Assembly (NCBI RefSeq): GCF_025147325.1
Contig: NZ_CP102262.1
Location: 2,728,001-2,792,000 of the forward strand
Origin: Bacteroides stercoris ATCC 43183
GTDB lineage: Bacteria > Bacteroidota > Bacteroidia > Bacteroidales > Bacteroidaceae
Reading direction: 5' to 3'
Length of the DNA stretch: 64,000 nucleotides
Position 1 is the stretch's first letter, and each line of letters opens with the position of its first letter. The position numbers and the translations under genes were made by a program. The notes beneath the pieces were generated by a model. It searched no databases. It was not told where the DNA came from and worked only from the letters and a program-made list of their open reading frames with translations. This document shows, in pieces, positions 20,396 to 63,370 of this stretch.

Positions 20396-20527
20396 TACCA
20401 GAAAGATACCTCCCTTTGGTACTCGGTGTACCTTACTAAGGTACGAGCCGTACCAAGCTTAGGTATATGAAGTTTCTTAGGTTGGTACATCGAATACCAA
20501 CCGTTGGTACGGATGAAATTCCCACGT
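20396..20527. repeat. 22-bp periodic array of GGTAC-N5-GTACC palindromes
   Basis: Units begin at 20418, 20440, 20462, 20484 and 20506, exactly 22 bp apart, each opening GGTAC or GGTAT. Units 1 and 2 are perfect 5+5 palindromes with 5-bp centres (GGTACTCGGTGTACC and GGTACGAGCCGTACC); unit 4 is GGTACATCGAATACC. A weaker unit ending ATACC precedes them at 20396-20410. No spacer sequence lies between units. Confidence 0.75.
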
Positions 20528-20628
20528 ATTATAATATAATGTGTAGGGCGAACCGGAAAGATGTGATTTATGGCACGGGATTTGTATATTATTAATCCAG
20601 TTTATGGTATGCAATATAAAGAAATGCG

Positions 20629-20636
20629 TATCTTTG
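20629..20636 (+). promoter_or_regulatory. -7 box for clpC
   Basis: TATCTTTG matches TAnnTTTG and lies 37 bp before the clpC start. No clear TTG -33 box is seen at 19-21 bp, which may point to activator dependence. Confidence 0.45.
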
Positions 20637-20672
20637 TCAGTCAAAACCTTTAATTAAGGAGATAAAAATTAT

Positions 20673-23201
20673 ATGAACAATCAATTTTCACAAAGAGTTT
20701 CTGATATTATAACTTATAGCAAGGAAGAAGCCAATCGACTGAGAAATAGATATATTGGCCCGGAGCATCTTCTGCTCGGCATGCTACGTGACGGTGGAGG
20801 AAAAGCTATCGAGATATTGATGAAACTCGATATAGACTTGAAGCAAGTAAAAAAGCGCATTGAAAGCTTCTTGAGAGATGCCGAAGACGACACCCTATTA
20901 CCCGATGCGGATGTGCCATTGTCGCCAATGGCCGCTAAGATATTGAAGATGTGCATTCTGGAAGCGCGCATTTTAAAGAGTTCAACAGCCGATGCCGAAC
21001 ATGTGCTGTTGGCTATACTGAAGGATGGCGACAACCTGGCTGCCACCGTCCTGGAAGAGAACCAGGTGAATTATCAAGCTGTATTTGAACAGCTTACAAT
21101 GCAATCCACCAACCCGAATGCTGGTATGGGATTTCCGGAAGAAGAGGAAGAAGAGGATGAAGACATGAACATGTCCCACTCTTCTCGCAATGCAGGACAA
21201 GGAGCGGCTTCTTCTGCACAGACTGCCTCGAAGAAGTCTTCCAATGATACTCCGGTCCTGGATAACTTCGGTACGGACATGACCCGTGCGGCAGAAGAAG
21301 GCAAGCTCGATCCGGTTGTAGGGCGTGAGCGTGAGATAGAACGCTTGGCGCAGATATTGAGTCGTCGTAAGAAAAACAATCCGGTGCTGATTGGTGAGCC
21401 GGGTGTCGGCAAGTCGGCTATTGTAGAGGGGTTGGCACTGCGTATCGTTCAAAAGAAAGTATCCCGTATCTTGTTTGACAAGCGGGTGATAATGCTCGAT
21501 ATGGCCTCTGTTGTAGCCGGAACCAAATACCGCGGACAGTTTGAAGAGCGCATTCGCTCCATTATCAATGAGTTGCAGAAGAATCCGAACGTAATCTTGT
21601 TCATAGACGAGATTCATACTATTGTAGGCGCCGGTGCAGCTGCCGGTTCTATGGATGCAGCCAATATGTTGAAGCCGGCTTTGGCTCGCGGCGAAATACA
21701 ATGTATCGGTGCTACCACGCTTGACGAATACAGAAAGAATATCGAGAAAGACGGTGCTTTGGAGCGTCGTTTTCAGAAAGTTATAGTAGAACCCACTACT
21801 CCGGAAGAAACGCTCCAGATACTGAGAAACATAAAAGAGAAGTACGAAGACCATCATAATGTGAGCTATACGGACGAAGCGTTAGAGGCATGTGTCAAGT
21901 TGGCAGAGCGTTATATAACCGACCGTAACTTCCCGGATAAAGCCATTGATGCTTTGGACGAAGCCGGTTCGCGTGTGCATCTGACGAACATTAATGTTCC
22001 CAAAGAGATTGAAGAGCAAGAAAAGCTGATAGAAGACGCACGTGTTTTGAAGGCTGAAGCCGTAAAGTCGCAGAACTTTGAACTGGCCGCCAGTTATCGG
22101 GATAGAGAGAAAGAACTTTCCGCTCGCCTGGATGAAATGAAAGAGGAATGGGAAGTACGTCTCAAAGACGACCGTCAGCTCGTTGGAGAGGAAGAAATAG
22201 CCAATGTCATATCGATGATGTCCGGTATTCCGGTGCAACGTATGGCTCAGGCGGAAAGCCTTAAGCTTGCAGGTATGAAAGAAGATTTGCAGGCAAAAGT
22301 TGTGGCTCAGGATGCTGCGATAGAAAAACTTACCAAAGCCATCCTGCGCAGCCGTGTAGGCTTGAAAGACCCTAACCGCCCTATCGGAACGTTTATGTTT
22401 CTCGGTCCTACCGGCGTGGGTAAAACGCATTTGGCCAAGCAGTTGGCTAAATATATGTTTGGTTCCAGCGATGCGCTGATACGCATTGATATGAGCGAAT
22501 ATATGGAGAAATATACGGTGTCCCGTATGATTGGAGCGGCCCCGGGGTATGTCGGTTATGAGGAAGGCGGACAGTTGACTGAGAAGGTACGCCGGAAACC
22601 TTATTCCATAGTGCTGTTGGACGAAATTGAAAAAGCTCACCCGGATGTGTTCAATATCTTGTTGCAGGTGTTGGATGAGGGACGTCTTACTGACAATTAT
22701 GGCAGAACGATTGACTTTAAGAATACAGTCATCATCATGACCTCCAATATCGGTACCCGCCAGTTGAAAGAGTTCGGTCGTGGCGTAGGTTTTGCGGCAC
22801 AGGCACGTACGGATGATAACGAGTACTCGCGCAGTGTGATTCAGAAAGCATTGAACAAGACCTTTGCTCCTGAGTTCCTGAACCGTCTGGATGAAATCAT
22901 AACGTTTGACCAGCTTTCGCTGGATGCCATTACGAAGATTGTGGACATAGAGCTGAAAGGTTTGTATGAACGGATTGAAGCCATTGGCTATAAGATGGTT
23001 GTAGATGATGAAGCCAAGAGATTCCTTGCTGCCAAAGGCTACGATGTGCAGTTTGGCGCCCGTCCGTTGAAGCGTGCCATTCAGAATTATCTGGAAGACG
23101 GACTTTCGGAGCTGATTGTGTCTGCCGGATTACAGCCCGGTGATACGGTTAATGTTTCTGTCGATAAGGAAAAAGATGAGTTGAGTATAACCAAAGCCTA
23201 A
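20673..23201 (+). CDS. clpC: ClpC-type AAA+ unfoldase, ATP-binding subunit of Clp protease
   Basis: An 842-residue HSP100 protein that unfolds substrates and feeds them to ClpP. The N-terminal Clp repeat domain covers about 1-150, followed by an acidic, Ser-rich linker ([11 protein letters not shown]). AAA-1 has Walker A GEPGVGKS at about 241. A middle region has UVR-like character ([20 protein letters not shown]), as in ClpC. AAA-2 has Walker A GPTGVGKT at about 578. The ClpP-docking tripeptide VGF is present in GRGVGFAAQ, which argues for ClpC and against ClpB. The ATG at 20673 follows AAGGAG. The 22-bp repeat array lies upstream. Confidence 0.94.
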
Positions 23202-23225
23202 CAAGCCTTTATAATAAAACAGTCA

Positions 23226-23259
23226 AAATGTCAGTTCTCCGGGACTGGCATTTTTTTTG
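23226..23259 (+). terminator. Terminator of clpC
   Basis: Hairpin AATGTCAGT (23227-23235) against ACTGGCATT (23244-23252), one G-T pair, followed by a run of T. Confidence 0.8.
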
Positions 23260-23311
23260 TGTTCAGTTTGCCAAAACAATAAAAATACAAATCTAAAAAT
23301 ATAAACTTAGT

Positions 23312-25360
23312 ATGCAAAAAGGAAATATTGGGGTAACTACAGAGAATATCTTCCCCGTTATCAAAAAGTTTTTGTACAGTGACCATGAAATCTTCCTTCG
23401 TGAGTTAGTCTCTAATGCCGTCGATGCTACCCAGAAACTTAAAACACTGGCTTCTATCGGTGAGTTTAAGGGTGAACTCGGTGATTTGACCGTGCATGTG
23501 TCCTTAGGCAAGGATACGATTACCGTATCCGATCGTGGTATCGGCCTGACGGCAGAAGAAATAGATAAATACATCAATCAGATTGCATTCTCGGGAGCCA
23601 ACGACTTCCTGGAGAAATATAAGAATGATGCCAATGCCATTATCGGTCATTTCGGACTTGGCTTTTACTCGGCTTTTATGGTTGCCAAGAAGGTCGAAAT
23701 CATCACCAAATCCTATCAGGATGGTGCTAAAGCCGTGAAATGGACTTGCGACGGTAGTCCGGAGTTTACCATCGAAGATACGGACAAGGCAGAACGCGGA
23801 ACGGATATCGTTCTTTATATAGACGACGATTGCAAGGAATTCCTTGAAGAAGCGCGCATCTCTTCTCTTTTGAAGAAGTATTGCAGCTTCCTTCCTGTTC
23901 CCGTTGCATTCGGCAAGAAAAAAGAATGGAAAGACGGCAAGCAGGTTGAAACATCCGAAGATAACATCATCAACAACGCTAATCCATTGTGGACGCTGAA
24001 GCCCAGCGAATTAAAAGACGAGGATTACAAGAAGTTCTATCGCGACCTCTATCCGATGTCCGATGAACCCTTGTTCTGGATACATCTGAACGTGGATTAT
24101 CCGTTCCATCTTACTGGTATTCTGTACTTCCCGAAGGTAAAGAGCAATATAGAGTTGAACAAGAACAAAATCCAGCTTTATTGCAATCAGGTCTATGTAA
24201 CGGACTCTGTAGAGGGTATTGTTCCAGACTTTCTGACATTGCTGCACGGTGTACTCGATTCGCCGGATATTCCGCTGAACGTATCCCGTTCCTATTTGCA
24301 AAGTGACTCCAATGTGAAGAAAATCTCTACATATATTACGAAGAAAGTATCCGACCGCTTGCAATCCATATTCAAGAACGACCGTAAGCAATTTGAAGAG
24401 AAGTGGAACGATTTGAAAATCTTCATCAACTACGGAATGCTCACACAAGAGGATTTCTATGATAGGGCAAAGGATTTCGCCTTTCTCTCCGATACGGATG
24501 ACAAGTATTATACCTTCGAAGAGTATAAGACCTTGATAAAGGATAGCCAGACGGATAAGGATGGTAATCTGATTTATCTGTATGCCAACAACAAAGACGA
24601 GCAATACAGCTATATCGAGGCTGCCAAGAATAAGGGATATAATGTGCTGTTGATGGGCGGCCAGCTTGATGTTGCCATGGTAAGCATGCTGGAGCAAAAG
24701 TTTGAGAAAGTGCGTTTCACCCGTGTAGACAGTGATGTCGTTGACAATCTGATAGTGAAGGAAGACAAGGCGAAAGATGCCTTGGAAGCCGATAAACAGG
24801 AGGTTCTCTCTGTTATCTTCAAGAGCCAGTTGCCGCAGATAGAAAAAACAGAGTTCAATGTAATGGCTCAAGCCTTGGGTGAAAATGCTTCACCGGTCAT
24901 GATTACTCAAAGCGAGTACATGCGTCGTATGAAAGAAATGGCTAATATCCAGGCAGGAATGAGTTTCTATGGCGAAATGCCGGACATGTTCAACCTGGTA
25001 TTGAATGCCGACCATAAACTGGTAAAGGAGATTCTGGCTGATGAAGACAAGGAATGTGCGGCTGCCGTTGCTCCGATTCAAAAAGAAATGGACGATGTAA
25101 ATACTCGTCGTAATGAATTGAAAAAGAAGCAGGAGGGCAAGAAAGACGAGGACATTCCTACAGCCGAAAAGGATGAGGTAAATGATTTGGATAAGAAGTG
25201 GGAAGATTTGAAAAACCGGAAAAATGGATTGTTTGCCGACTATGCCGCTCAGAATAAGGTTGTCCGTCAACTTATTGATTTGGCATTGCTTCAAAATGGC
25301 ATGTTGAAAGGTGAAGCTTTGAATAATTTTGTAAAGAGAAGCATCGATTTGATTAAATAA
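23312..25360 (+). CDS. htpG: Molecular chaperone HtpG (Hsp90)
   Basis: A 682-residue Hsp90 homologue that remodels client proteins with ATP. The N-terminal GHKL ATPase domain carries the motifs FLRELVSNAVDA, VSDRGIGLT and IGHFGLGFYSAFMVA. The middle domain follows, with the catalytic arginine loop (LPLNVSRSYLQSD-like: IPLNVSRSYLQ). The C-terminal dimerisation domain contains a charged Lys/Glu stretch (RRNELKKKQEGKKDEDIPTA) that is longer than in E. coli. It lies 110 bp after clpC on the same strand but behind a terminator, so it is its own unit; the adjacency of two stress chaperones is notable. Confidence 0.96.
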   Translation: MQKGNIGVTTENIFPVIKKFLYSDHEIFLRELVSNAVDATQKLKTLASIGEFKGELGDLTVHVSLGKDTITVSDRGIGLTAEEIDKYINQIAFSGANDFLEKYKNDANAIIGHFGLGFYSAFMVAKKVEIITKSYQDGAKAVKWTCDGSPEFTIEDTDKAERGTDIVLYIDDDCKEFLEEARISSLLKKYCSFLPVPVAFGKKKEWKDGKQVETSEDNIINNANPLWTLKPSELKDEDYKKFYRDLYPMSDEPLFWIHLNVDYPFHLTGILYFPKVKSNIELNKNKIQLYCNQVYVTDSVEGIVPDFLTLLHGVLDSPDIPLNVSRSYLQSDSNVKKISTYITKKVSDRLQSIFKNDRKQFEEKWNDLKIFINYGMLTQEDFYDRAKDFAFLSDTDDKYYTFEEYKTLIKDSQTDKDGNLIYLYANNKDEQYSYIEAAKNKGYNVLLMGGQLDVAMVSMLEQKFEKVRFTRVDSDVVDNLIVKEDKAKDALEADKQEVLSVIFKSQLPQIEKTEFNVMAQALGENASPVMITQSEYMRRMKEMANIQAGMSFYGEMPDMFNLVLNADHKLVKEILADEDKECAAAVAPIQKEMDDVNTRRNELKKKQEGKKDEDIPTAEKDEVNDLDKKWEDLKNRKNGLFADYAAQNKVVRQLIDLALLQNGMLKGEALNNFVKRSIDLIK

Positions 25361-25384
25361 GCCCCTTTAGATTTCTATTATAAC

Positions 25385-25425
25385 AGGGCATTGCAGCTAA
25401 TATGAGTTGTAATGCCCTTTTTTTG
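25385..25425 (+). terminator. Terminator of htpG
   Basis: Hairpin AGGGCATTGCAGCT (25385-25398) against AGTTGTAATGCCCT (25405-25418) with a T7 tail. Confidence 0.85.
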
Positions 25426-25488
25426 TCTGTTTTTTCGTAATAGGTCTGTTTTTTTTCGTTGGATACGAGGTTTTTGGAAACAATTGTC

Positions 25489-25496
25489 TATATTTG
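25489..25496 (+). promoter_or_regulatory. -7 box for the patatin-barrel gene
   Basis: TATATTTG fits TAnnTTTG and lies 41 bp before the ATG at 25538; no good -33 box is visible. Confidence 0.4.
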
Positions 25497-25537
25497 AGCA
25501 TTGAATAAATTAGTATATTTCACTCGAAACCGTATTC

Positions 25538-27835
25538 ATGAAAAGATTTTTTTTGTTTTTGTCAGTCTGTTTATTGCTTCTGCCGTTTGTGCAAGCTCAG
25601 AAAGTAGGACTTGTTTTGAGTGGCGGAGGTGCGAAAGGCATGACCCATATCGGTATCATTCGCGCTTTGGAGGAAAACAATATTCCTATCGACTACATTA
25701 CGGGTACTTCTATGGGAGCTATCATAGGTTCACTCTATGCTATGGGATACTCTCCCGATGATATGGAGGCTTTATTGCGTTCCGAAGACTTCAAACGCTG
25801 GTATTCAGGACAGGTAGAACCCGAATACGGGTATTATTTTAAACAGAACCGGCCGACCCCGGAGTTTTTCAATATCCGTTTCTCCTTTAAGGACTCGCTG
25901 CATATCAAGCCTCAGATACTGCCTACAAGCATGGTAAATCCCATTCAGATGAATCTGGTCTTTGTGGAGCTATTTGCACGGGCTACGGCTGCATGCAGCG
26001 GCGATTTTAACCGCCTGTTTGTGCCTTTCCGGTGTATTGCCTCCGATGTATATAACAAGAAACCGTTGATTATGCGTAGAGGAGATTTGGGAGATGCGGT
26101 ACGCGCTTCCATGAGTTTTCCGTTTGTTTTCAAACCGATAGAGATTGATAGCGTTTTAGCTTATGACGGTGGAATTTATAATAATTTCCCCACAGATATT
26201 ATGCGTGAGGACTTTAAACCGGAAGTCATCATAGGTAGCGTGGTAGCCGCCAACCCCGGTAAGCCGAAAGAGAATGATTTGATGAGCCAGCTTGAAAATA
26301 TGATTATGCAGAAGACGGATTATACTCTTCCGGATTCTTTAGGCATTATTATGACATTCAAGTATGACGATGTAAGCCTTTTGGACTTTGACCGTTTGCA
26401 GGAGTTGCACGATATCGGCTATAACCGGACTATCAGTTTAATGGATTCTATAAAAGGCCGTATTCATCGGAGGGTAAGTGCGGAAAATGTTCGTTTAAGG
26501 CGGTTGGTCTACCGCAGTAATTTGCCTCAATTCCGCTTTAGGGACATCTATATAGAGGGCGCCAATCCACAACAGCAGGCGTATATCAAAAAAGAATTTC
26601 ATGACGAAGACCATGAGGTGTTTACATATGAAGATTTGAAACGTGGATATTTCCGTTTGCTGTCTGATAATATGATATCGGAGATTATACCTCATGCTGT
26701 ATATGACTCTGAAAACGATTTGTATTCGCTGCATCTGAAAGTGAAAATGGAAGATAATTTTTCTGTAAGGATGGGTGGAAGTGTATCGACAACCAGCTCT
26801 AATCAGATTTATTTGGGGTTGGGTTATCAGGACTTGAATTATTATTCCAAAGAAATAACCCTTGACGGCCAGATTGGCAAGGTATATAATAATGCGCAGC
26901 TTATGGCCAAGATAGACCTTCCTACCCGTATTCCAACCTCCTACCGCCTTATTGCTTCTTTAAGTACGTTCGATTATTATAAAAAGGACAAACTCTTTTC
27001 TAAGAATGATAAGCCCTCTTTTAACTCTAAAGATGAACGTTTTGTCAAGTTGATGGTAGCCTTGCCTTTTTTGGCCAATAAACGGGCGGAAATAAGCATC
27101 GGATATGGGAAACTTCAAGACAATTACTTTCAGTCCAGCGTGATTAATTTTGACAAGGACCGTTCGGATAGGAGTACCTACAACCTTTTGGGAGGGGCTA
27201 TCGGCTTTTATGGGAGTACGCTGAATGCACGACAGTATGCCACTAAAGGGTATTTTGAAAAACTGGTGGCACAGGTCTTTAGCGGAAAGGAGAAATTTGT
27301 ACCGGGAAATCCGACGGAAACGAGTGTTACGACTAAAGAAAGGCAATCTTGGCTGCAAATTTCTTATATGAAATATGCCTATCATACTATGAGTCCCAAA
27401 TTTACTTTGGGATGGATGGCAGAGATGCTGTATTCATCGAAGAACTTTTCGGAGAATTATACGGCAACCATGTTGCAGGCGGCAGATTTTTCTCCTACTC
27501 CTCATAGTAAGCTGATGTATAATGAAGCATTCCGGGCCAACCAATTCTTGGCAGCGGGTATCAAGCCTATTTTTGTTTTCAATGATATGTTCCAATTCCG
27601 TTCTGAATTTTATGGTTTCGTACCGATATTTCCTATTAAAAAGAATGCATTGAACAAAGCTTATTATGGAAAAGCGTTTTCGCGCTTTGAATATATAGGA
27701 GAAATTTCTGTAATATGCCAATTGCCCTTTGGAGCAATATCTGCATATGTAAATCATTATAGCTCACCGAAAAAGGAGTGGAATGTGGGGTTGACACTCG
27801 GCTGGCAGCTGTTTAATTATCGGTTCATCGAGTAA
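25538..27835 (+). CDS. Patatin-like phospholipase fused to a POTRA domain and BamA-type barrel
   Basis: A 765-residue outer-membrane protein. A signal peptide (FFLFLSVCLLLLPFVQAQ) precedes a patatin domain with the oxyanion motif GGGAKG at 29-34, the nucleophile serine in GTSMG (Ser58), and the dyad aspartate in YDGGIYNNFP (about 210). Residues about 335-400 look like a POTRA unit (FRFRDIYIEGANPQQQAYIK). The remaining 365 residues have alternating beta-strand character and an aromatic end, like BamA/TpsB barrels. The layout matches type Vd secretion proteins such as PlpD. Whether the patatin domain is released or stays periplasmic cannot be told. It is a single gene ahead of the tRNAs. Confidence 0.9.
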   Translation: MKRFFLFLSVCLLLLPFVQAQKVGLVLSGGGAKGMTHIGIIRALEENNIPIDYITGTSMGAIIGSLYAMGYSPDDMEALLRSEDFKRWYSGQVEPEYGYYFKQNRPTPEFFNIRFSFKDSLHIKPQILPTSMVNPIQMNLVFVELFARATAACSGDFNRLFVPFRCIASDVYNKKPLIMRRGDLGDAVRASMSFPFVFKPIEIDSVLAYDGGIYNNFPTDIMREDFKPEVIIGSVVAANPGKPKENDLMSQLENMIMQKTDYTLPDSLGIIMTFKYDDVSLLDFDRLQELHDIGYNRTISLMDSIKGRIHRRVSAENVRLRRLVYRSNLPQFRFRDIYIEGANPQQQAYIKKEFHDEDHEVFTYEDLKRGYFRLLSDNMISEIIPHAVYDSENDLYSLHLKVKMEDNFSVRMGGSVSTTSSNQIYLGLGYQDLNYYSKEITLDGQIGKVYNNAQLMAKIDLPTRIPTSYRLIASLSTFDYYKKDKLFSKNDKPSFNSKDERFVKLMVALPFLANKRAEISIGYGKLQDNYFQSSVINFDKDRSDRSTYNLLGGAIGFYGSTLNARQYATKGYFEKLVAQVFSGKEKFVPGNPTETSVTTKERQSWLQISYMKYAYHTMSPKFTLGWMAEMLYSSKNFSENYTATMLQAADFSPTPHSKLMYNEAFRANQFLAAGIKPIFVFNDMFQFRSEFYGFVPIFPIKKNALNKAYYGKAFSRFEYIGEISVICQLPFGAISAYVNHYSSPKKEWNVGLTLGWQLFNYRFIE

Positions 27836-27862
27836 TTTTTTTCAAAAAAGTTTGCGTATCTC

Positions 27863-27892: not shown

Positions 27893-27910
27893 CACCCGTA
27901 AAACAAACAA

Positions 27911-27984
27911 GGCCGCGTAGCTCAACTGAATAGAGTAGCTGACTACGGATCAGCCGGTTACAGGTTTGAATCCTGTCGCGGTCA
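27911..27984 (+). tRNA. tRNA-Arg (ACG), copy 1
   Basis: A 74-nt cloverleaf. The acceptor arms GGCCGCG and CGCGGTC pair with one G-T, the anticodon stem GCTGA/TCAGC holds loop CTACGGA (anticodon ACG), and the T loop TTTGAAT follows. CCA is not encoded. It is nearly identical to the copy at 28003. Confidence 0.95.
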
Positions 27985-28002
27985 CAAATTGTTAATAATA
28001 AA

Positions 28003-28076
28003 GGTCGCGTAGCTCAACTGAATAGAGTAGCTGACTACGGATCAGCCGGTTACAGGTTTGAATCCTGTCGCGATCA
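28003..28076 (+). tRNA. tRNA-Arg (ACG), copy 2
   Basis: A tandem duplicate of the previous gene after an 18-bp spacer. It differs only at acceptor pair 3-70, which is C-G in copy 1 and T-A here, so pairing is kept by two matching changes. Confidence 0.95.
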
Positions 28077-28081
28077 CAGAG

Positions 28082-29232: not shown

Positions 29233-29242
29233 AGGAGTAGAT

Positions 29243-40428: not shown

Positions 40429-40516
40429 GGCTGAATGAACCGTAATGAATCAGGGAATGAAAGGCAATGAGGCAGGGAGTGAATGCCTTTCATTCCCTAA
40501 CTCATTACATCCCCTT
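40429..40516. repeat. 22-bp periodic array with a 15-bp perfect inverted repeat
   Basis: CAGGGAATGAA at 40451 and CAGGGAGTGAA at 40473 are 22 bp apart, and a related unit (CTGAATGAACCGTAATGAAT) precedes them at 40431. AGGGAATGAAAGGCA (40452-40466) is the exact reverse complement of 40484-40498, with GTAATGA/TCATTAC extending the arms outward (40442-40448 and 40502-40508). It lies between the convergent HsdR-like and beta-lactamase genes. Confidence 0.65.
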
Positions 40517-51231: not shown

Positions 51232-51771
51232 ATGATACAGAACGAACGGGATTGCCGCCATGAACATGTGCTGGGCGTGGCAAGGCAAATGATGACTGCC
51301 GCACGCACAGCTCCTAAAGGGAAAGGTGTAGATGTAATAGAAGCAGCACTGGTTACAGGAGAAGACCTGAAAAAGCTTTCAGAAAAAATGAATGCTATGG
51401 CAGAAGAACTGGGTATGAAGTTCTTTCTGCGTGATGCGGCAAATGTCCTGCAGGCAGAATGTGTCGTTATAATAGGTACGCGCGAGCAGGCGCAGGGATT
51501 GAACTGCGGTCATTGTGGCTTTCCTACTTGTGCCGGGCGTACGGAGGGTGTGCCATGTGCCTTGAATACGGTTGATGTGGGGATTGCCGTCGGCTCCGCT
51601 TGTGCCACGGCTGCCGACATGCGGGTAGATACCCGGGTAATGTTCTCTGCCGGACTGGCCGCACAGCGAATGAACTGGCTGAAAGATTGCAAGACTGTAT
51701 TCGCCATTCCGGTCAGTGCCTCTTCCAAGAACCCGTTCTTTGACAGGAAGCCTAAGGAAGAAAAGAAATAA
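51232..51771 (+). CDS. DUF2148 ferredoxin-like domain protein
   Basis: A 179-residue protein with four cysteines arranged as an iron-sulfur type motif: GLNCGHCGFPTCAGRTEGVP, with a further Cys in CALNTVDVGIAVGSACATAA. The N-terminal half starts with MTAARTAPKGKGVDVIEAAL, typical of the family. The function is unknown; the CxxCxxxxC spacing suggests a cluster-binding redox protein related to the CODH gamma-type Fe-S domain. It is a single-gene unit with a good promoter, divergent from the FetAB-like operon. The 21-bp repeat array lies just downstream. Confidence 0.87.
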   Translation: MIQNERDCRHEHVLGVARQMMTAARTAPKGKGVDVIEAALVTGEDLKKLSEKMNAMAEELGMKFFLRDAANVLQAECVVIIGTREQAQGLNCGHCGFPTCAGRTEGVPCALNTVDVGIAVGSACATAADMRVDTRVMFSAGLAAQRMNWLKDCKTVFAIPVSASSKNPFFDRKPKEEKK

Positions 51772-51787: not shown

Positions 51788-51892
51788 TGAAGTTGAGAAC
51801 GGGAAACGTAAAGTTGAACTTTAGCGGCGTAGAGTTGAACTTCAGAACTCTAAAGTGGCACTTTAGAAATGCAGAATAGAACTTTGCGTAAA
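51788..51892. repeat. 21-bp periodic array of TAAAGT-N3-ACTTTA palindromes
   Basis: Five contiguous units start at 51788, 51809, 51830, 51851 and 51872, exactly 21 bp apart. The best units are TAAAGTTGAACTTTA (51809-51823) and TAAAGTGGCACTTTA (51851-51865); TAGAGTTGAACTTCA lies between them, and the outer units keep one half (TGAAGTTGA and ACTTTG). It fills most of the gap before aguA. Confidence 0.78.
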
Positions 51893-54516: not shown

Positions 54517-56274
54517 TTATTCTTTTACCTCTACAATAAGGTTAAGCTCGTCCAATTGTTTTTGGTCGATAACCGAAGGTGCATCCAGCATAACATCGCG
54601 ACCGGAATTATTCTTCGGGAACGCAATGCAGTCACGAATACTGTCAAGACCGGCAAAGATACTTACCCAACGGTCGAGACCGTAAGCCAAACCACCATGA
54701 GGAGGTGCGCCGAACTTGAAGGCATTCATCAGGAAACCGAATTGTTCTTCAGCCTTTTCCGGTGTGAATCCCAATATCTCAAACATCTTGGCCTGCAATT
54801 GAGCGTCATGGATACGGATCGAACCGCCACCGACTTCAATACCGTTACATACCATATCATAAGCATCGGCACGAACGGCTGCAGGATCTGTGTCCAACAA
54901 AGGAATATCTTCATCCTTCGGATGGGTAAACGGATGATGCATAGCCATCAGGCGGCCTTCTTCTTCGCTCCATTCAAACATCGGGAAGTCAACTATCCAA
55001 AGCAATGCAAACTTATTCTTGTCGCGTAAGCCTAATTGGTTACCCATTTCAAGGCGAAGCTCATTCAGTTGCTTGCGGGTCTTCATTACGTCATCGCCGC
55101 TCAAAATAAGAATCAAATCGCCCGGTTTTGCACCGAAAGCGGCTTTCATCTCTTGCAGCACCTCTTGCGTGTAGAATTTATCGACACTTGATTTCACAGT
55201 GCCGTCAGCTTCTACACGGGCATATACCATTCCTTTGGCTCCGATTTGCGGTTTCTTTACGAACTCGGTCAAGGCATCCAGTTGCTTGCGGGTGTAGCTT
55301 GCAGCGCCTTCCGCACAGATACCGCCGATGTATGCGGCATTGTCAAATACAGAGAAGCCATGACCTTTCATGATATCCATTAACTCTACGAACTTCATGC
55401 CGAAGCGCAAATCAGGTTTGTCGCTACCGTAATATTTCATAGCATCTGCCCATGGCATACGTTGGAACGGTTCGGTCAACTCAACACCGCGCAGTTCTTT
55501 GAAGAGGTATTTTGCCATACCTTCGAAAAGTTCGATTACATCGTCCTGCTGTACGAAAGACATTTCACAGTCGATCTGTGTAAATTCCGGTTGACGGTCG
55601 GCACGGAGGTCCTCATCGCGGAAGCATTTTGCGATTTGGAAGTAACGGTCAAAACCCGAAACCATCAGCAACTGTTTCAATGTTTGAGGGCTTTGCGGCA
55701 ATGCGTAGAATTGTCCCGGATTCATGCGTGAAGGAACGACAAAGTCGCGTGCACCTTCCGGTGTAGAACCGATGAGAAGAGGAGTCTCTACTTCAATGAA
55801 TCCTTTGCTGTCCAGGTATTTACGCACTTCAATAGTCATCTTATGGCGTAATTCCAAATTCTTGCGTACTGCTGCACGGCGTAAATCCAGATAACGGTAT
55901 TTCATACGGATATCGTCACCGCCGTCTGTATTGTCTTCAATTGTAAAAGGAGGAGTTAAGGCTGAATTCAGCACATTCAATTCCGATACGATGATTTCGA
56001 TATCTCCCGTAGGAATATTTTTGTTTTTGCTGAAACGTTCGTTGACCGTTCCTACTATTTGAATTACGAACTCACGGCCCAAGCGGTTGGCCTGTTCGCA
56101 AAGTTCGGCATCTACTTCTTCATTAAACACTAATTGGGTAATTCCGTAACGGTCGCGGAGGTCTACGAATGTCATGCCGCCCATTTTACGGCTGCGCTGT
56201 ACCCAACCTGCCAGCGTCACTTGCTTATTAACGTCGGAGATACGCAATTCTCCACAGGTGTGTGATCTATACAT
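54517..56274 (-). CDS. aspS: Aspartyl-tRNA synthetase
   Basis: A 585-residue class II synthetase. It has an N-terminal OB-fold anticodon domain ([20 protein letters not shown]), motif 2 in [20 protein letters not shown] followed by [10 protein letters not shown], the bacterial GAD insertion (about 300-420), and motif 3 [16 protein letters not shown] near the C-terminus. The length matches the bacterial type rather than the archaeal one. It is followed closely by gtrA; the divergent upstream side faces a 219-bp gap to the lipid kinase. Confidence 0.97.
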
Positions 56275-56493
56275 CTTATTATTTACTATTTTACAATTTA
56301 CTGTTTACTGTTTGGCGATGCAACATCAGAGATGTACCATTGCTAAAAACGGATAAATATCGTGCAAAAATACATAAAACATATTACAGACGTATCAAAA
56401 CAGATAAGTTTATTTTTAAAAAGCGACTTTATATAATAGCCGGACAGAAAAATACCAATCTTCCATACTGTTCCGGCTCTCTTGCAGAAGGCG

Positions 56494-57537: not shown

Positions 57538-57673
57538 TTAAACGGATATTACTATAGGAAATTTCTTCATGCAAAAGTAATATAAATCCTTTAAATTTTA
57601 ACCATATGAATCTCTTAAAACGAGTTAGGGCAGATTTTTTAGAGTAAATGAAACAGATAACAACATATTTTGC

Positions 57674-57681
57674 TATCTTTG
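57674..57681 (+). promoter_or_regulatory. -7 box for spt
   Basis: TATCTTTG fits TAnnTTTG, 61 bp before the spt start. No TTG is seen at 19-21 bp upstream. Confidence 0.4.
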
Positions 57682-57742
57682 CCCCCTGTTTTTAAGAACT
57701 TGTTTTTAATAGGATTAATATTCATTATATAAAAGACATTTC

Positions 57743-58930
57743 ATGGGTTTACTGCAAGACAAATTCGCGAAATATGATTTGCCGCAACAATTTATGGCAA
57801 AAGGGGTATACCCGTATTTCCGCACGATTAACAGCCATCAGGATACAGAGGTAATGATGGATGGCAAAAAAGTTCTGATGTTCGGTTCAAATGCATATAT
57901 GGGACTGACATATGACAAGCGAATCATTGACGCTTCGATAGCTGCCACTGAAAAATATGGTACAGGGTGTGCCGGTTCCCGCTTTTTGAATGGTACTCTT
58001 GATATACATGTTGAACTGGAAAAAGAATTGGCCGAGTTCGTAGGAAAAGACGAAGCGCTCTGTTTTTCTACCGGTTTTACTGTGAACGAGGGCATTATTC
58101 CCGCAGTGGTAGGACGTGGTGACTATATCATCTGCGATGACCGCGACCACGCTTCTATTGTAGACGGACGCCGCCTTTCGTTCGCCACACAGTTAAAGTA
58201 TAAGCACAATGACATGGAAGACCTTGAAAAAGAGCTTCAGAAGTGCGAACCGGATGCGGTGAAACTGATTATTGTAGATGGTGTATTCTCAATGGAAGGC
58301 GATTTGGCCAACCTGCCGGAAATCGTTCGTCTGAAAAAGAAATATAATGCCAGCATTTATGTGGATGAAGCTCACGGATTAGGTGTATTCGGTAAGCAAG
58401 GCCGCGGTGTATGCGATCATTTCGGAGTAACCGAAGATATTGACTTGATAATGGGAACATTCAGCAAGTCATTGGCTTCTATCGGTGGTTTTATTGCTGG
58501 CGACAAGGAGGTTATCAACTGGTTGCGCCACAATGCCCGCTCTTATATATTCCAGGCAAGTAGTACGCCGGCGGCAACGGCAGCGGCTCGTGAAGCACTG
58601 CACATTATTAAATCCGAACCGGAACGTATCCAACGTCTGTGGGATATCACTAACTATGCATTGAAGAGTTTCCGTGATGCAGGTTTTGAGATTGGTGAAA
58701 CAGAGTCGCCCATTATACCTTTGTATGTGCGTGATACGGAAAAGACCTTTGTCGTAACGAAGATGGCTTTTGATGAAGGCATCTTTATCAATCCGGTTAT
58801 ACCGCCTGCATGCGCTCCTCAGGATACATTGGTACGTGTGGCATTAATGGCTACCCATACTAAAGAACAAGTGGATTATGCAGTTGAGAAGTTGACAAAA
58901 TGCTTTAGGGAATTGGGGATAATCAAGTAA
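57743..58930 (+). CDS. spt: Serine palmitoyltransferase-like alpha-oxoamine synthase
   Basis: A 395-residue PLP enzyme that condenses serine with an acyl-CoA, the first step of sphingolipid synthesis in Bacteroides. The opening MGLLQDKFAKYDLPQQFMAK is recognisable from the B. thetaiotaomicron enzyme. Seen are MFGSNAYMGLTYDKRIIDAS, GTGCAGSRFLNGT, the cofactor site VDEAHGLGVFG, and the PLP lysine in GTFSKSLAS (Lys242). It could formally be a biotin-pathway KAPA synthase or glycine acetyltransferase, but the N-terminus and divergent lipid kinase favour the sphingolipid role. A terminator lies at 58954-58994. Confidence 0.9.
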   Translation: MGLLQDKFAKYDLPQQFMAKGVYPYFRTINSHQDTEVMMDGKKVLMFGSNAYMGLTYDKRIIDASIAATEKYGTGCAGSRFLNGTLDIHVELEKELAEFVGKDEALCFSTGFTVNEGIIPAVVGRGDYIICDDRDHASIVDGRRLSFATQLKYKHNDMEDLEKELQKCEPDAVKLIIVDGVFSMEGDLANLPEIVRLKKKYNASIYVDEAHGLGVFGKQGRGVCDHFGVTEDIDLIMGTFSKSLASIGGFIAGDKEVINWLRHNARSYIFQASSTPAATAAAREALHIIKSEPERIQRLWDITNYALKSFRDAGFEIGETESPIIPLYVRDTEKTFVVTKMAFDEGIFINPVIPPACAPQDTLVRVALMATHTKEQVDYAVEKLTKCFRELGIIK

Positions 58931-58953
58931 AGGAACAATTTGAAGCAAAGATA

Positions 58954-58994
58954 AAAGCCGTTTAATCGTGAATCGGTTAAACGGCTTTCTTTTT
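58954..58994 (+). terminator. Terminator of spt
   Basis: AAAGCCGTTTAA (58954-58965) pairs exactly with TTAAACGGCTTT (58977-58988), followed by CTTTTTAT. Confidence 0.85.
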
Positions 58995-59022
58995 ATAAAC
59001 CCATTTAAACTAACCAAACAAC

Positions 59023-59829
59023 ATGAAAAAACAAATTCTGATTTTTACTGCTGTTGTATGTGGAATGACTTGTACTACAACTGCTTATGCGCAATTTAAA
59101 ATTGGTGGTAAGAAAATAAATGTAGGTAAGGTTGTTCAAGCCGGTACGGATGCTGCTAAAGCTATAACTCTTTCGGATGCTGATATTGCAGCTATGAGCA
59201 GGGAGTATATGCAATGGATGGATACTCACAATCCTTTGACGAAGCCTGATACGGAATATGGCAAGCGTCTGGAGAAACTGACCGGACATATCAAAGAAGT
59301 GGATGGTTTGAAAGTGAATTTTGGGGTTTATGAAGTGGTTGACGTAAACGCTTTTGCCTGCGGTGACGGCAGCGTACGTATTTGCGCCGGATTAATGGAT
59401 ATTATGACGGATGATGAAGTAATGGCTGTAGTAGGCCATGAGATAGGTCACGTAATTCATACGGACTCCAAAGATGCAATGAAGAGCGCATATCTTCGTT
59501 CTGCCGTGAAGAATGCTGCGGGTGCTGCGAGTTCTACCGTGTCAAAGCTGACCGACTCCGAGTTGGGAGCTATGGCGGAAGCCTTGGCTGGTGCGCAATA
59601 TTCGCAGAAGCAGGAAACGGAAGCGGACGATTACGGTTTTGAATTTTCTATAAAGCATAATTTGGATCCTTATGCCATGTATAATGCATTGAATAAACTG
59701 CTGGAACTTTCAGCGGACGCTCCCAAAGAATCTAAATTCCAAAAGATGTTTTCATCTCATCCGGATACGGCAAAACGAGTAGCCCGTGCTAAGGAGAAAG
59801 CTGATGAATATATGAAAAACAAGCAATAA
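59023..59829 (+). CDS. Exported M48-family metalloprotease
   Basis: A 268-residue zinc protease of the M48 (LoiP/YggG-like) family. A signal peptide of about 24 residues (ending TTTAYAQ) precedes the catalytic domain with the HExxH motif HEIGH at 139-143 and the third ligand in QKQETEADDYGFEF. The ending KMFSSHPDTAKRVARAKEKA is typical of the group. It is predicted to be periplasmic and to take part in envelope quality control. It has no lipobox, unlike E. coli LoiP. A hairpin at 59851-59893 follows. Confidence 0.92.
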   Translation: MKKQILIFTAVVCGMTCTTTAYAQFKIGGKKINVGKVVQAGTDAAKAITLSDADIAAMSREYMQWMDTHNPLTKPDTEYGKRLEKLTGHIKEVDGLKVNFGVYEVVDVNAFACGDGSVRICAGLMDIMTDDEVMAVVGHEIGHVIHTDSKDAMKSAYLRSAVKNAAGAASSTVSKLTDSELGAMAEALAGAQYSQKQETEADDYGFEFSIKHNLDPYAMYNALNKLLELSADAPKESKFQKMFSSHPDTAKRVARAKEKADEYMKNKQ

Positions 59830-59850
59830 GAGGTTGCATTTCCAAATTAC

Positions 59851-59893
59851 AGAAAGAGGCGGGATTCCATTTGAATTCTGCCTCTTTTCTTTA
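59851..59893 (+). terminator. Terminator of the M48 protease gene
   Basis: GAAAGAGGCGGGATT (59852-59866) pairs with AATTCTGCCTCTTTTC (59874-59889), with small mismatches and a T-rich tail. Confidence 0.7.
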
Positions 59894-60013
59894 TAATAAA
59901 AGAATAAAATGTACTTTTGCTTCAAATTATTGACTTTACTTATCCGATTGCTTTGATATTGGTTTTATTTTAGTATGTTTGCTGTTATTATTAATGAAAA
60001 GCATAACATTTGA

Positions 60014-60700
60014 ATGAAAAAGCAAGATTTCCTTTTCGTTTTCATCCTAATCGTAATCTTCTTACCTTTTTTCGTGAGTGATGCAGTTTACGGCTGGTAT
60101 AAGTCTTTCAATGCCGCACATGGTATGGTAATGAGTTTCTTGAAATTCGGAGTGCTTGCTACTTTAGGTGAGATGCTGGGGCTTCGCATCAGTGCCGGAG
60201 TATATAACAGAAAAGGATTTGGAGTGCTTTCCCGTGCGGTCGTATGGGGTATCTTAGGCATGGGAATCAATATGGCGATGATTGTATTTTCTAAAGGTGT
60301 GCCGCAGTTCATGGAGTATATGGGGATGGCGGATGCTTCGGCGATAATTAACGGCGATTGCTGTTTGGACAAGTTATGGATTGCTTTGGCTGTATCTGTT
60401 GCCATGAACACAATCTTTGCTCCTGTATTTATGACATTTCATAAGATAACGGATACACACATTCTGGATTGTGACGGTTCGCTCCGCAGCCTTATTACCC
60501 CTATTCCGATGGCGCGTATCATTACGCATCTTAATTGGGATACGCAATGGAATTTTGTTTTTAAGAAAACGATTCCTTTTTTCTGGTATCCGGCTCATAC
60601 CATTACTTTCTTGTTGCCGGATGAGGTAAGAGTTTTGTTTGCCGCTATCTTGGGCGTTGCGCTCGGGGTACTGCTGGCTATTGCTGCAAGGATGAAATAA
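60014..60700 (+). CDS. Polytopic membrane protein, Mpv17/PMP22-like
   Basis: A 228-residue integral membrane protein with about five hydrophobic segments (FVFILIVIFLPFFVSDAVYG, LSRAVVWGILGMGINMAMIV, DKLWIALAVSVAMNTIFAPV and the last near LFAAILGVALGVLLAIAARM). The late segment WNFVFKKTIPFFWYPAHTIT followed by FLLPDEVRVLFAA recalls the W-x-x-P and N-F-x(n)-P-x-x-R signature of the Mpv17/PMP22 family, but I would not insist on it. The function is unknown. The start follows directly on TTTGA; the 3' end is overlapped by the antisense remnant of a lipoprotein gene. Confidence 0.7.
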   Translation: MKKQDFLFVFILIVIFLPFFVSDAVYGWYKSFNAAHGMVMSFLKFGVLATLGEMLGLRISAGVYNRKGFGVLSRAVVWGILGMGINMAMIVFSKGVPQFMEYMGMADASAIINGDCCLDKLWIALAVSVAMNTIFAPVFMTFHKITDTHILDCDGSLRSLITPIPMARIITHLNWDTQWNFVFKKTIPFFWYPAHTITFLLPDEVRVLFAAILGVALGVLLAIAARMK

Positions 60701-60966
60701 TGGTTCTCTATTTCCATACCGTTGCCAATGCTTTTTACTGTGAGATAAAGTTCATCTCCCCGTTGCTCCCAATATTTGTATACCAGTGTAGCCATATTAA
60801 TGGAAGAGGCATCTCCACCCTCTTCCAGTTTGATACTCTGCATTTTTCCCGGTTGCCCTTCGATAGGCATTATCCATGAGTCAATGATAGAGTCCTTGCT
60901 TTTCTTTTCATTACAAGCAGACATTGCAATAACCAATACGGCGGTTGCCAATAAAAGTCTTTTTAT
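60595..60966 (-). pseudogene. Remnant of a lipocalin-like lipoprotein gene
   Basis: The frame encodes a lipoprotein signal (KRLLLATAVLVIAMSAC, lipobox Cys) and a lipocalin-like core with EGGDASSINMATLVYKYW and LTVKSIGNGMEIEN. Two defects are visible. First, the codon at the expected start position (60964-60966), just before AAA AGA CTT, is ATA instead of ATG. Second, family similarity stops after SIGNGMEIEN at about 60706 and the frame then runs for over 100 bases antisense to the neighbouring gene. A TTG at 60951 could be used, but would cut the signal peptide. Most probably a decayed gene. Confidence 0.65.
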
Positions 60967-60988
60967 ACTATATATTTTTAAAAGTGAG

Positions 60989-61263
60989 TCAATGTATTTT
61001 CGTTATGGCAGATGCAATATTAATGCCAGGCTCATCTTCGGTGATCGTGTATGAAACCTCTAATGTATCTCCTATTAATAGTCCTTTGTAAACCCATTCA
61101 TGGCAGCATCCATGACTATGCCTTGTGCTTGATGTACGGAATCGTTAATCTCTTCTGTGCCGAGCTCGGCATTTTCTTGTTCCATAGTTCCGGCTTTATT
61201 TTTGCAGGAAGCACATCCCAACAAGATAATGGAAACAAATAAAAAAGGTTTAGTCAACTTCAT
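60989..61263 (-). pseudogene. Frameshifted small lipoprotein gene
   Basis: The start MKLTKPFLFVSIILLGCASC is an intact lipoprotein signal peptide. The frame then reads VHQAQGIVMDAAMNGFTKDY and stops at 61075. A different frame continues at once with YKGLLIGDTLEVSYTITEDE followed by PGINIASAITKIH and a TGA at 60989-60991. This looks like the missing second half of the same domain, so an indel or internal deletion has broken the gene. In relatives I recall the region after AMN is about 20 residues longer, which favours a deletion. Confidence 0.65.
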
Positions 61264-61403
61264 ATTCTCTGATCTTATTAAGATTATTTCTACAAAAATA
61301 GATATAAAAGAGAATGTATCAAAGAGGCAGAGAATAATTAACCGTTCCTGTATATTGTATTTCAGATATTTATAATTTTATTTCAGATAAAGTTATAAAA
61401 ATA

Positions 61404-61435
61404 TTTGGTCTATATCAAAAAAGATTTTACCTTTG
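61404..61435 (+). promoter_or_regulatory. Promoter of tRNA-Pro
   Basis: TTTG at 61404-61407, a 20-bp spacer and TACCTTTG at 61428-61435, 26 bp before the tRNA. Confidence 0.7.
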
Positions 61436-61461
61436 CACTCGCTTTTAAGAAGTAAAGCACT

Positions 61462-61536
61462 CGGGGTGTAGCGCAGTCCGGTTAGCGCACCTGCTTTGGG
61501 AGCAGGGGGTCGTGGGTTCGAATCCCGCTACCCCGA
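61462..61536 (+). tRNA. tRNA-Pro (TGG)
   Basis: A 75-nt cloverleaf with acceptor arms CGGGGTG and TACCCCG, anticodon stem CCTGC/GCAGG and loop TTTGGGA (anticodon TGG), then T loop TTCGAAT. CCA is not encoded. Confidence 0.96.
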
Positions 61537-61550
61537 CTGATAAGAATCAA

Positions 61551-61580
61551 GGAGTTACAGTAAAATGTAGCTCCTTTTTT
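61551..61580 (+). terminator. Terminator of tRNA-Pro
   Basis: GGAGTTACA (61551-61559) pairs with TGTAGCTCC (61566-61574), one G-T pair, followed by T6. Confidence 0.82.
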
Positions 61581-61656
61581 GTTGCTCGATTGGGCGGTTG
61601 TATTGACGGCTTAACGTAGAAATGGGGTCAACGTAACAATCTGAGGGATTTTATAT

Positions 61657-62577
61657 TTAAGCATATAATTTAGCAAGTCTATATAAGAAAAAAGCTCTAT
61701 CTCTTACTCCTCTGAACTGTGCTCTAAATGCTTTGATTTTAGCATTGAATGACTCTGCTGCGGCATTGGTTGCCCTCCTTTCAAAGAAATTGATTATATC
61801 CAGATAATGTGTTTGTATAGAACGTGCGACCCTTCCAAAGGTGAGGAACCCTGATTTATCTACTTCATCATACCACCTTGCCAGCCTTGTCAAAGCAATA
61901 TCCTTAAACTTACACTGATGATAGATTAAGCCTAACTGCATAGACAGATAATATCCTTTCTTTATATCGGGATATTCCTTGAAAAGAATTTCAGCCCGTA
62001 TTCTTTGAGACTGAGTCCATAAGGATTCCTTCTTGTAAAGCAGATAAATACTTCTCGCTAACAACTGCTTTCTTGTATCTCCATTAGCGAAAACAGGTGC
62101 ATGATACATCTTTCCACAGGCCTTTGCATAAGCAATCTGAGTGGACTCTTCATCCAAAGCCTCCCAGCGAGCTTTTACACGCATCTCCTGCACAGCTTCA
62201 TAAGCTAACTTCTGTACGTGAAAGCGATCGGTAACACGTTTGGCCGCAGGAAAGCAGATGCGTGCAATCTGCTCCATGTTAGGAGCCATATCCAAGGTTA
62301 TCTCGCGCACTTGGTAACGGCGGCGACGGGATAGCTTAAGCAGGACAGAAGTGACCGTATGAACGTCCGTACCTTTAATGATGGCAATCATACTGCCTTT
62401 ACCACCGTGAGCTTCTTTATTGGTCAGTACAGTATAGAGTTCCCCACGCGAGAGGGCTACCTCATCAATACAGATATAAGCACCGATATTCTTTTCGAAT
62501 AGTAGCCAATCCTCTGCATGAACAAGTTGGTCCCAATGGAGATAACCACTTAGATGGTTACGGTATTGACGCTCCAA
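61657..62577 (-). CDS. Insertion sequence C transposase orfB
   Basis: A 306-residue DDE transposase part with Asp in YICIDEVALSRGE, Asp in TLDMAPNMEQIARICFPAAK, the TDRFHVQKLAYEAVQEM segment, and Glu in AAAESFNAKIKAFRAQFRG; it ends RLAKLYA, the intact terminus of this family. No ATG exists near the 5' end; the first candidate is TTG at 62577, yet the frame stays open and conserved upstream (KLLGVLYGVDGDLLERQYRN) up to the slippery run in orfA. This strongly suggests that the enzyme is made as an orfA-orfB fusion by recoding. Confidence 0.87.
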   Translation of the reverse strand: MERQYRNHLSGYLHWDQLVHAEDWLLFEKNIGAYICIDEVALSRGELYTVLTNKEAHGGKGSMIAIIKGTDVHTVTSVLLKLSRRRRYQVREITLDMAPNMEQIARICFPAAKRVTDRFHVQKLAYEAVQEMRVKARWEALDEESTQIAYAKACGKMYHAPVFANGDTRKQLLARSIYLLYKKESLWTQSQRIRAEILFKEYPDIKKGYYLSMQLGLIYHQCKFKDIALTRLARWYDEVDKSGFLTFGRVARSIQTHYLDIINFFERRATNAAAESFNAKIKAFRAQFRGVRDRAFFLYRLAKLYA

Positions 62578-62635
62578 TAAATCCCCGTCAACTCCATATA
62601 AAACACCTAAGAGCTTGCAACTGATCGGATAGTTA

Positions 62636-62977
62636 TCAATACAGTTCTTTTAAAAAAGACGCAAAATCCTGCGTCATACGAGTACCTTCAGCCACCATAC
62701 GCCAGTTACGGGAGATATACTCATTATGCTTCTTTAAGAGCCAGCGACGACGACGAATATTAAGGAAGACCTTCTTGCCACGAAGAGGAAAATCCTGAAC
62801 AATAACAGGAGCATAAAAGCCTTTACTCTCAGTATCCTGAGCTGTATACTTCTCAGGAACGATATTTTTCTCCTCAAGGTAGATCACAACTTCATTTACG
62901 CTTTCCTTCACATCAACAAGATCAAAGTAATCTAAAGTGCCTTCAGGAAGAAGAAGGCGATAACCGTTTAATTCCAT
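62636..62977 (-). CDS. Insertion sequence C orfA, N-terminal transposase part
   Basis: A 113-residue protein starting MELNGYRLLLPEGTLDYFDL with the basic region VFLNIRRRRWLLKKHNEY and the end FASFLKELY. It is homologous to 30629-30970 over its full length. It carries the conserved run TCTTTTTTAAAAGAA 12 codons or fewer before its stop, and orfB follows in the +1 frame. Confidence 0.84.
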   Translation of the reverse strand: MELNGYRLLLPEGTLDYFDLVDVKESVNEVVIYLEEKNIVPEKYTAQDTESKGFYAPVIVQDFPLRGKKVFLNIRRRRWLLKKHNEYISRNWRMVAEGTRMTQDFASFLKELY

Positions 62978-63043
62978 AAGCTATGAATTTGGAGACAAAG
63001 ATAACAATTTATAAATTTACCCCTCAGGTTTTTACATTGACCC

Positions 63044-63370
63044 GTAGAAATCCGATTCGACTATAATTTTCGTGGTTCAGGGGATGTTTAACCCTAAGGG
63101 GTTCTTGTTGCTATGTATAAATTATGGCGGGTTACAATAATCCATTAGACCTTATTTCGCATTTATTACTGCCTTTGACTGCAAATAATAATTCGTCAGA
63201 CATCTGTTGCCCTTTCGTTAAACAACCGTCTAACGCAAGAGTAACAGATGTCTGACGCAAGGGCAATAACTGTTTAACGAATTAAGAATAGTAGCCGGAC
63301 TATTTGTTGGCAATACATTTTCCTACTATCCATAGAGACTTTCTTTATTCTTTATGAGTTATCAAGAACA
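63044..63370. other. Gene-free region between insertion sequence C and trmN6
   Basis: Contains the target duplication at its left end, the 22-bp array at 63189-63298 and otherwise unremarkable AT-rich sequence. No ORF or RNA gene is seen. Confidence 0.6.
63189..63298. repeat. 22-bp periodic array with crossed inverted repeats
   Basis: ACGCAAG occurs at 63233 and 63255 and ACGAATT at 63277, steps of 22 bp; TTCGTCAGACA (63193) and TTCGTTAAACA (63215) are also 22 bp apart. The 15-base CGTCAGACATCTGTT (63194-63208) is the exact reverse complement of 63243-63257, and TCGTTAAACA (63215-63224) of 63271-63280, so the paired segments cross each other. It lies downstream of trmN6. Confidence 0.68.

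Follow-up and report, generated by a model that had tools for sequence, protein, structure and literature searches.

Four intergenic repeat arrays in a 64,000-nucleotide stretch of the Bacteroides stercoris genome are members of a genus-wide class of arrays with a period of 21-23 base pairs (bp), and arrays of this class are likely to act as operator arrays for dedicated, self-linked, sequence-specific DNA-binding proteins. The stretch, called the window below, comprises positions 2728001-2792000 of one contig of 4,007,931 bases; the genome is referred to as G000 and the four arrays as A1 to A4 (Table 1). The proposal builds on direct observations, namely the class and its period, the conservation of half-sites in two arrays, the linkage to genes, the pairing of motifs and the way in which the period follows the protein tree, from which we infer binding. 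Judged by sequence similarity, A4 and A3 would be assigned to proteins of the HU-HIG family (PF18291), and A1 probably to a protein of the DUF6078 family (PF19555).

Occurrence of the arrays

The original prediction had placed four arrays in the window, with periods of 22, 22, 21 and 22 bp, and both sites and periods were confirmed, the latter by the autocorrelation lags. For the survey of G000, the window was combined with 40 stretches of 20 kb, one per 100 kb, which together made up 864 kb with 98,772 intergenic bases. Intergenic autocorrelation matches were most frequent at lag 22 (16 matches), followed by lags 21 and 44 (six each), with four at most at any other lag; one dinucleotide shuffle per stretch gave none. 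A scan for palindrome centres (four equally spaced centres, at least 23 of 32 pairs, periods 12-40) yielded 10 matches at period 22, six at 33 (1.5 x 22), one at 21 and none at the remaining periods, the mean over five shuffles being 0.4 or less per period. In 200-kb samples from six relatives, periods 21-23 dominated the intergenic DNA of five, with the shuffles empty, and the sample from G022 gave zero matches at any period. The comparison with shuffled intergenic DNA, put forward with the original prediction as a possible refutation, was thus made for both G000 and its relatives, and the arrays exceeded chance.

Table 1. Repeat arrays of the window (positions in the window; lags in bp)
Array	Position	Strand	Description	Strongest lag	Second or nearly second strongest lag
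A1	20396..20527	.	GTACC family; TACC/GGTA half-sites every 11 bp, period 22	22	44
A2	40433..40516	.	directional 22-bp units (AATGAATCAGGG type), last unit inverted	22	
A3	51788..51892	.	TAAAGT-N3-ACTTTA cells, period 21	21	42
A4	63190..63283	.	about 94 bp, AATTCGT...ACGAATT ends; directional 22-bp units, second part inverted	22	44

A1 is located between gyrA (17681-20212, minus strand) and clpC (20673-23201, plus strand), and A3 3' of a DUF2148 gene (51232-51771, plus strand). Each unit had been expected to be close to a palindrome, which holds for A1 and A3, the only arrays with single-unit near-palindromes. In A2 and A4 no centre with 7/8 pairs was found; their units are directional, and the orientation switches within the array.

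Three of the arrays, A1, A3 and A4, belong to families with dispersed copies. Using A1 as a query, 29 matches were obtained in G000 at an E value of 10 or less (A1 itself counted), and in eight further A1-type arrays inspected there, 22 and 44 were the top lags in all eight. At E <= 1e-3, relatives of A3 were found at three more sites in G000, two in G031 and one in G018, and those of A4 at four more sites in G000, seven in G031, six in G018 and, in part, at one in G022. The A4 relatives have constant ends (AATTCG...CGAATT) and a constant length, and some A4-type units start with CGTC or CGTT. A2 has a single weak relative in G000, at 1033863 (E 0.009). The idea that each site has a private motif was therefore given up for A1, A3 and A4. 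Outside G000, five TACC/GGTA half-sites at 11-bp steps occur in at least 119 stretches of a species-level genome collection; among 80 titles of these, 79 are Bacteroidota and one is a Psychrobacter metagenome-assembled genome (sp. UBA3480). The units of the latter array (L212:7116-7262) are nearly identical, and the contig is possibly foreign or misbinned. Of the TACC arrays at 119 loci, 12 lie inside an open reading frame (ORF) call and 22 at the edge of one.

Linkage to HU-HIG and DUF6078 genes

An A4-type array lies directly upstream of the HU-HIG gene L372 (G000:542372, minus strand). The proteins next to such arrays are members of PF18291, of the HU/IHF superfamily; the family was reportedly first described by the Aravind group, about 2017. 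In ten genomes PF18291 gave 14-34 matches per genome at E 1e-3, general HU proteins counted, and in a draw across the phylum it was found in 104 of 118 genomes, with 16 matches in G000 and one to six in the other matching genomes. Their scores exceeded 26.2 bits, the curated cut-off, in all eight cases: 123.5 for L372, 130.3 for L346, 128.8 for L355, 127.1 for L364, 106.2 for L373, 106.8 for L374, 62.9 for L378 and 42.1 for L381. Of 35 relatives of L372, some matched winged-helix families on the C-terminal side at E <= 0.01, namely PF22168 (18), AbiEi_4 (7), HTH_Crp_2 (5) and SelB-wing_3 (3). No solved structure was found for L372; PHROGs gave no match for four of five proteins and a weak one for L378, and a search of viral contigs with one single protein retrieved no HU-HIG.

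At least one array was present in 28 of 30 HU-HIG loci. The 86 genes examined comprised 13 from G000, 11 from G040 and partial sets from eight other genomes, the PF18291 rows L382-L387 of G000 and L396-L399 of G040 being left out on account of stops or scores near or below the cut-off. An array was found within 400 bases upstream of 49 of the 86 genes and downstream of five. For proteins of at least 185 amino acids the upstream figure was 34/36 and the downstream figure 0/36, and the best period in the range 12-40 was 21-23 in 35 of the 36; L362, one of the two genes missed, has an array slightly below the threshold. Among control ORFs of at least 150 amino acids, in which HU-HIG and DUF6078 genes had been left, 57/1278 had an array upstream and 60/1278 downstream; for control ORFs of 185-260 amino acids the upstream figure was 6/253, and for shuffled upstream DNA 0/720. 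When the proteins were grouped at 60% identity, an array accompanied one or more members in 16 of the 17 clusters and every member in 15. Nine of the 49 HU-HIG arrays fell below 0.5 palindromy, and at least one array of the 49 (L370) is a low-complexity repeat.

Period and motif of the array both go with the protein. On a tree of the 49 HU-HIG proteins, the period labels (21 in 8 rows, 22 in 33, 23 in 8) required four changes, a result inflated by near-copies; shuffled labels required 15.1 on average, and 0/200 shuffles came down to four. L392, an exception on this tree, has an additional period-21 array further upstream. The median correlation between array motifs rose from 0.28 below 35% protein identity through 0.34, 0.44 and 0.57 to 0.79 above 75%, where the top is inflated by orthology of the upstream DNA.

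Some of the shorter HU-HIG genes lie in a cassette with DUF4248 and amidase genes, and the array is then found beyond DUF4248. Two copies of the order array, DUF4248 gene (minus strand), HU-HIG gene (plus strand), both of the HU-HIG type, are present in G000 (L381:859-2542 and L380), that of L381 with an N-acetylmuramoyl-L-alanine amidase gene in addition. In the window, two HU-type genes (4124-4396 and 4425-4709) match PF18291 below the cut-off (21.6 and 19.4 bits), and no array was found upstream of them. An Rfam FopS small RNA (L079:11893-11964) is separated by some hundred bases from an array with period 23 that belongs to the HU-HIG L378 family.

The commonest cluster of genes neighbouring TACC arrays (6/128 loci) is DUF6078. 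In 10/10 rows the array lies between 15 bases inside and 91 bases past the stop codon of the DUF6078 gene, the ten rows, eight of them reached by way of arrays, representing nine genes (L250 and L331 are the same gene). L085 and L114, from the unbiased G000 sample, both have an array behind the stop, with motifs other than TACC or GTACC. The GTACC array at 2807 kb in G000 lies 3' of an ORF similar to DUF6078. Among relatives of DUF6078, C24, C30 and C59 are kept and C19 nearly always is, which suggests a zinc site.

Pairing of dispersed arrays with gene-linked arrays

Five of 59 arrays of period 21-23 from seven genomes are linked to an HU-HIG gene; six more match DNA upstream of an HU-HIG gene of the same genome, and three only that of another genome. 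Shuffled DNA gave 0 matches. Once DUF6078 is included, the 26 arrays of G000 divide into 5 that are linked to a gene and 21 that are not; among these 21, a match to a gene-linked array at E <= 1e-3 was obtained for 11, shuffled targets again giving 0 matches. A4 matches the upstream array of L372 itself (E 1.8e-20). The HU-HIG cassette L381 at G000:3053290 contains an array matched by A3 (E 1.9e-10 and 3e-11), and A1 matches, at E 1.6e-8, the array 3' of the DUF6078 gene at 2807 kb; no match to A2 was found among the arrays linked to HU-HIG or DUF6078. An array of the same motif beside an HU-HIG gene of the same genome thus exists for A3 and A4 and was found for neither A1 nor A2. The suggestion in the original prediction that the four are binding arrays for related regulators is borne out to this extent: it fits A3 and A4, which match arrays of the HU-HIG-linked kind, where motif and period track the protein, and fails for A1, whose match lies behind a gene of another family, DUF6078, and for A2, which lacks a partner.

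Anatomy, conservation and turnover

Half-sites follow one another at intervals of 11 bp, with orientations that alternate. In 49 of the 59 arrays, those palindromic at 0.5 or above, positions within a unit paired no better than positions of different units at the main centre (z 2.1 at 1 of 22 distances) and less well at the other centre. The symmetry therefore stems from a motif that is shared.

Conserved flanks made it possible to align two GTACC arrays with their orthologues. In the four species compared at the 334.5-kb locus, the half-sites mismatched in 22/320 comparisons (0.07) and the other array columns in 171/548 (0.31), and at the 2807-kb locus (five species) the corresponding figures were 28/440 (0.06) and 276/710 (0.39); as these comparisons are pairwise, with half-sites defined in G000, their p values overstate the significance. 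When folded on 11 bp, four adjacent phases had mismatches of 0-0.11 and the remaining seven of 0.23-0.55. A1 is present in G031, where it is better kept than the adjoining intergenic DNA; with 1/32 mismatches in half-sites and 5/63 elsewhere, its divergence from the G000 copy is too small to tell the two apart.

The comparison between relatives that had been proposed together with the original prediction revealed gain and loss of exact units. G018 and G138 lack one exact 22-bp unit at the 334.5-kb locus, and A3, which has orthologues in both G018 and G031, shows a single 21-column gap in G031. Whole arrays vary as well: G131 has no array at the 334.5-kb locus but retains both flanks, and the syntenic site of A4 in G031 contains, instead of A4, an array of a different 22-bp family. 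A2 has diverged in G031.

Other repeats

Nine viral contigs carry the TACC pattern; as an ORF call of at least 60 amino acids overlaps it in seven of them, these patterns were set aside as iteron-like or due to chance. The TACC/GGTA arrays at 11-bp steps in L300:2482-2529, L301:8761-8808 and L304:6900-6958 lie within ORFs that look, by eye, like phage replication genes; the iterons of phage lambda are likewise situated inside a gene, lambda O. In the related viral contigs L296:980-1038, L297:918-976 and L303:744-802, the half-sites at 11-bp steps are kept while other bases vary, and in L297 and L303 the same short ORF call covers the array.

Low-palindromy repeats with units of a 7-bp type (for example TAATCAC) form a class separate from the palindromic arrays. 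They were seen in G000 (L096:4719-4802, L116:3555-3638 and L106:11384-11467) and in G040 (L139:4575-4658), show lags of 14 as well as 21 bp and in several cases lie directly 5' of a gene. The window itself contains two more short repeats, at 56270-56313 and 61358-61406, with periods of 22 and 23 bp and about two copies each, and a 92-bp tandem duplication at 27909-28078 with one transfer RNA gene per copy.

Proposed function and alternative explanations

If the arrays are operators, each motif family would belong to a gene with a copy of the array next to it: for HU-HIG immediately 5' of the start codon or, in the DUF4248/HU-HIG/amidase cassette, on the far side of DUF4248, and for DUF6078 immediately 3' of the stop. 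One dimer would occupy each cell of 21-23 bp, each subunit reading one half-site of 4-6 bp, and adjacent dimers, placed two helical turns apart, would face the same side of the helix and could thus stack in a cooperative manner. Binding to the gene's own array may result in autoregulation, and the dispersed arrays with that motif, which often lie close to the 3' ends of genes, may be further targets, either sites of a regulon or anchors of the nucleoid.

Several observations weigh against this proposal. For ten of the 21 G000 arrays that are not gene-linked, including A2, no match to a gene-linked array was found. The HU-HIG genes encoding fewer than 185 amino acids mostly lack an array (upstream in 15/50, downstream in 5/50). 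Eight of the ten DUF6078 rows were found through TACC or GTACC arrays in the first place. HU-HIG was rejected as a neighbour of TACC arrays, since among 128 loci with flanks of up to 8 kb none had it next to the array and a single one had it 6.2 kb off. To these are to be added the inflation of the tree and motif correlation results mentioned above and the weak covariation considered next.

Were the arrays hairpins in RNA or DNA, such as terminators or stabilizers of mRNA, the stem-loop rather than protein binding would matter. Convergent gaps are indeed favoured (15/54 classified arrays vs 86/518 gaps; for TACC arrays 28/85 vs 33/177, p 0.013), A2 and A4 fold strongly, and the innermost pairs of GTACC units in G000, units whose TACC and GGTA cores had been fixed as a search criterion, covary weakly (27/48 vs 17.4 expected), as do two of six inner pairs in 135 TACC arrays (z 2.1 and 3.1). 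The 49 palindromic arrays show no excess of pairing within units, however, no Rfam match was found on the arrays from five sources, and half-sites are conserved where spacers are not. Structured RNA was set aside on the first two of these grounds, the weak inner-pair signals notwithstanding, and we regard hairpins as very unlikely to account for the arrays. Neutral minisatellites, arising by slippage or template switching, are also very unlikely: exact units are gained and lost and some arrays (L198) have near-identical units, but conservation is specific to phase, the arrays are linked to particular genes and the period varies with the protein subtype. A common generating process, which the original prediction had offered as an alternative to regulator binding, is likewise not needed, in spite of the turnover of exact units.

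A selfish system of gene plus array, in which the protein maintains or spreads the array and the dispersed arrays are non-autonomous copies, like the repetitive extragenic palindromic (REP) elements of REP-associated tyrosine transposase (RAYT) genes, is unlikely but would explain why gene and array travel together, why a whole array is present or absent between relatives (as in G131), why the A4 relatives have constant ends and length and why divergent gaps are avoided (5/54 classified arrays vs 145/518 gaps; in TACC arrays the deficit, 17/85 vs 55/177, was not significant, p 0.076). On the other hand, no target-site duplication was recognized by eye at the A4 relatives, no transposase or nuclease domain occurred in the Pfam results of the array-linked proteins, and half-sites are conserved across species at fixed sites. 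RAYT-driven REP elements proper, equally intergenic, palindromic and divided into species-specific motif families, have a negligible chance of being the explanation: the transposase domain Y1_Tnp (PF01797) was detected in two of eight genomes and not in G000, for which this origin was rejected.

Operator arrays with dedicated binding proteins thus remain the preferred reading. A much bolder extension of it, which we offer tentatively and hold to be less likely than not, is that Bacteroidales chromosomes carry dozens of parallel address codes. Each HU-HIG or DUF6078 paralogue would read its own array and mark its own gene with it, and DNA would be looped, anchored or silenced by way of the dispersed copies; two unrelated families would have converged on the two-turn geometry, and paralogues and motifs might still diversify, as in an arms race or in self-recognition.

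In conclusion, HU-HIG, an expanded family whose role is unclear, and DUF6078 gain a readable candidate DNA target beside their genes, which makes their specificity, autoregulation and target genes directly testable. The proposal would also explain intergenic repeats that a standard tandem-repeat scan can miss: Tandem Repeats Finder at a minimum score of 30 listed A2 alone among the four arrays of the window. Pairs of protein and array may furthermore become tools for use in gut Bacteroides.

Comparison with known systems

The closest precedent, as far as the available text of its description goes, is BrickBuilt of Porphyromonas gingivalis, an intergenic element of the miniature inverted-repeat transposable element (MITE) or minisatellite kind with a 23-nucleotide tandem period (PMC4596501). 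It is described there as one motif in one species, a MITE with terminal repeats like those of the insertion sequence (IS) IS5 and with promoter activity. Its published consensus (R read as A, Y as C) is palindromic when taken as an array (0.79 vs 0.52 in shuffles, 0/2000 as high). BrickBuilt_14 lies between PGN_0871 (minus strand) and PGN_0872 (plus strand), a PF00216 DNA-binding protein, when the last column of the published table is taken as the strand (PMC4596501). It is thus situated upstream of an HU-type gene, the arrangement expected from the HU-HIG arrays; in the available text the string "palindrom" does not occur and no link to an HU-type protein is drawn (PMC4596501). As regards likeness to a MITE, the A4 relatives share their AATTCG...CGAATT ends, and inspection by eye recognized no target-site duplication. 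The literature consulted, mostly non-subscription, yielded neither a description of the array class nor a site bound by HU-HIG or DUF6078. The statement in the original prediction that no named element class of this kind exists consequently stands for the class as a whole, with BrickBuilt, to judge from the text available, as a named single case.

REP elements and bacterial interspersed mosaic elements (BIMEs) associated with RAYT are, in the accessible parts of their descriptions, likewise intergenic palindromic repeats with alternating orientation and family-specific motifs (PMC2817692, PMC3733652). They differ from the arrays in their partner, RAYT not being found in G000. We also know of no fixed cell of 21-23 bp in REP or BIME elements. 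REP elements mobilized by RAYT are marked by a GTAG or CGTC tag at the hairpin foot. In the iterons of the lambda origin and in ArgR boxes, palindromic sites of about 18 bp are spaced at about two helical turns and are bound by dimers or hexamers. What sets the arrays described here apart from these is that a single genus has dozens of motifs, that each motif goes with a paralogue of its own, and that dispersed copies exist in addition.

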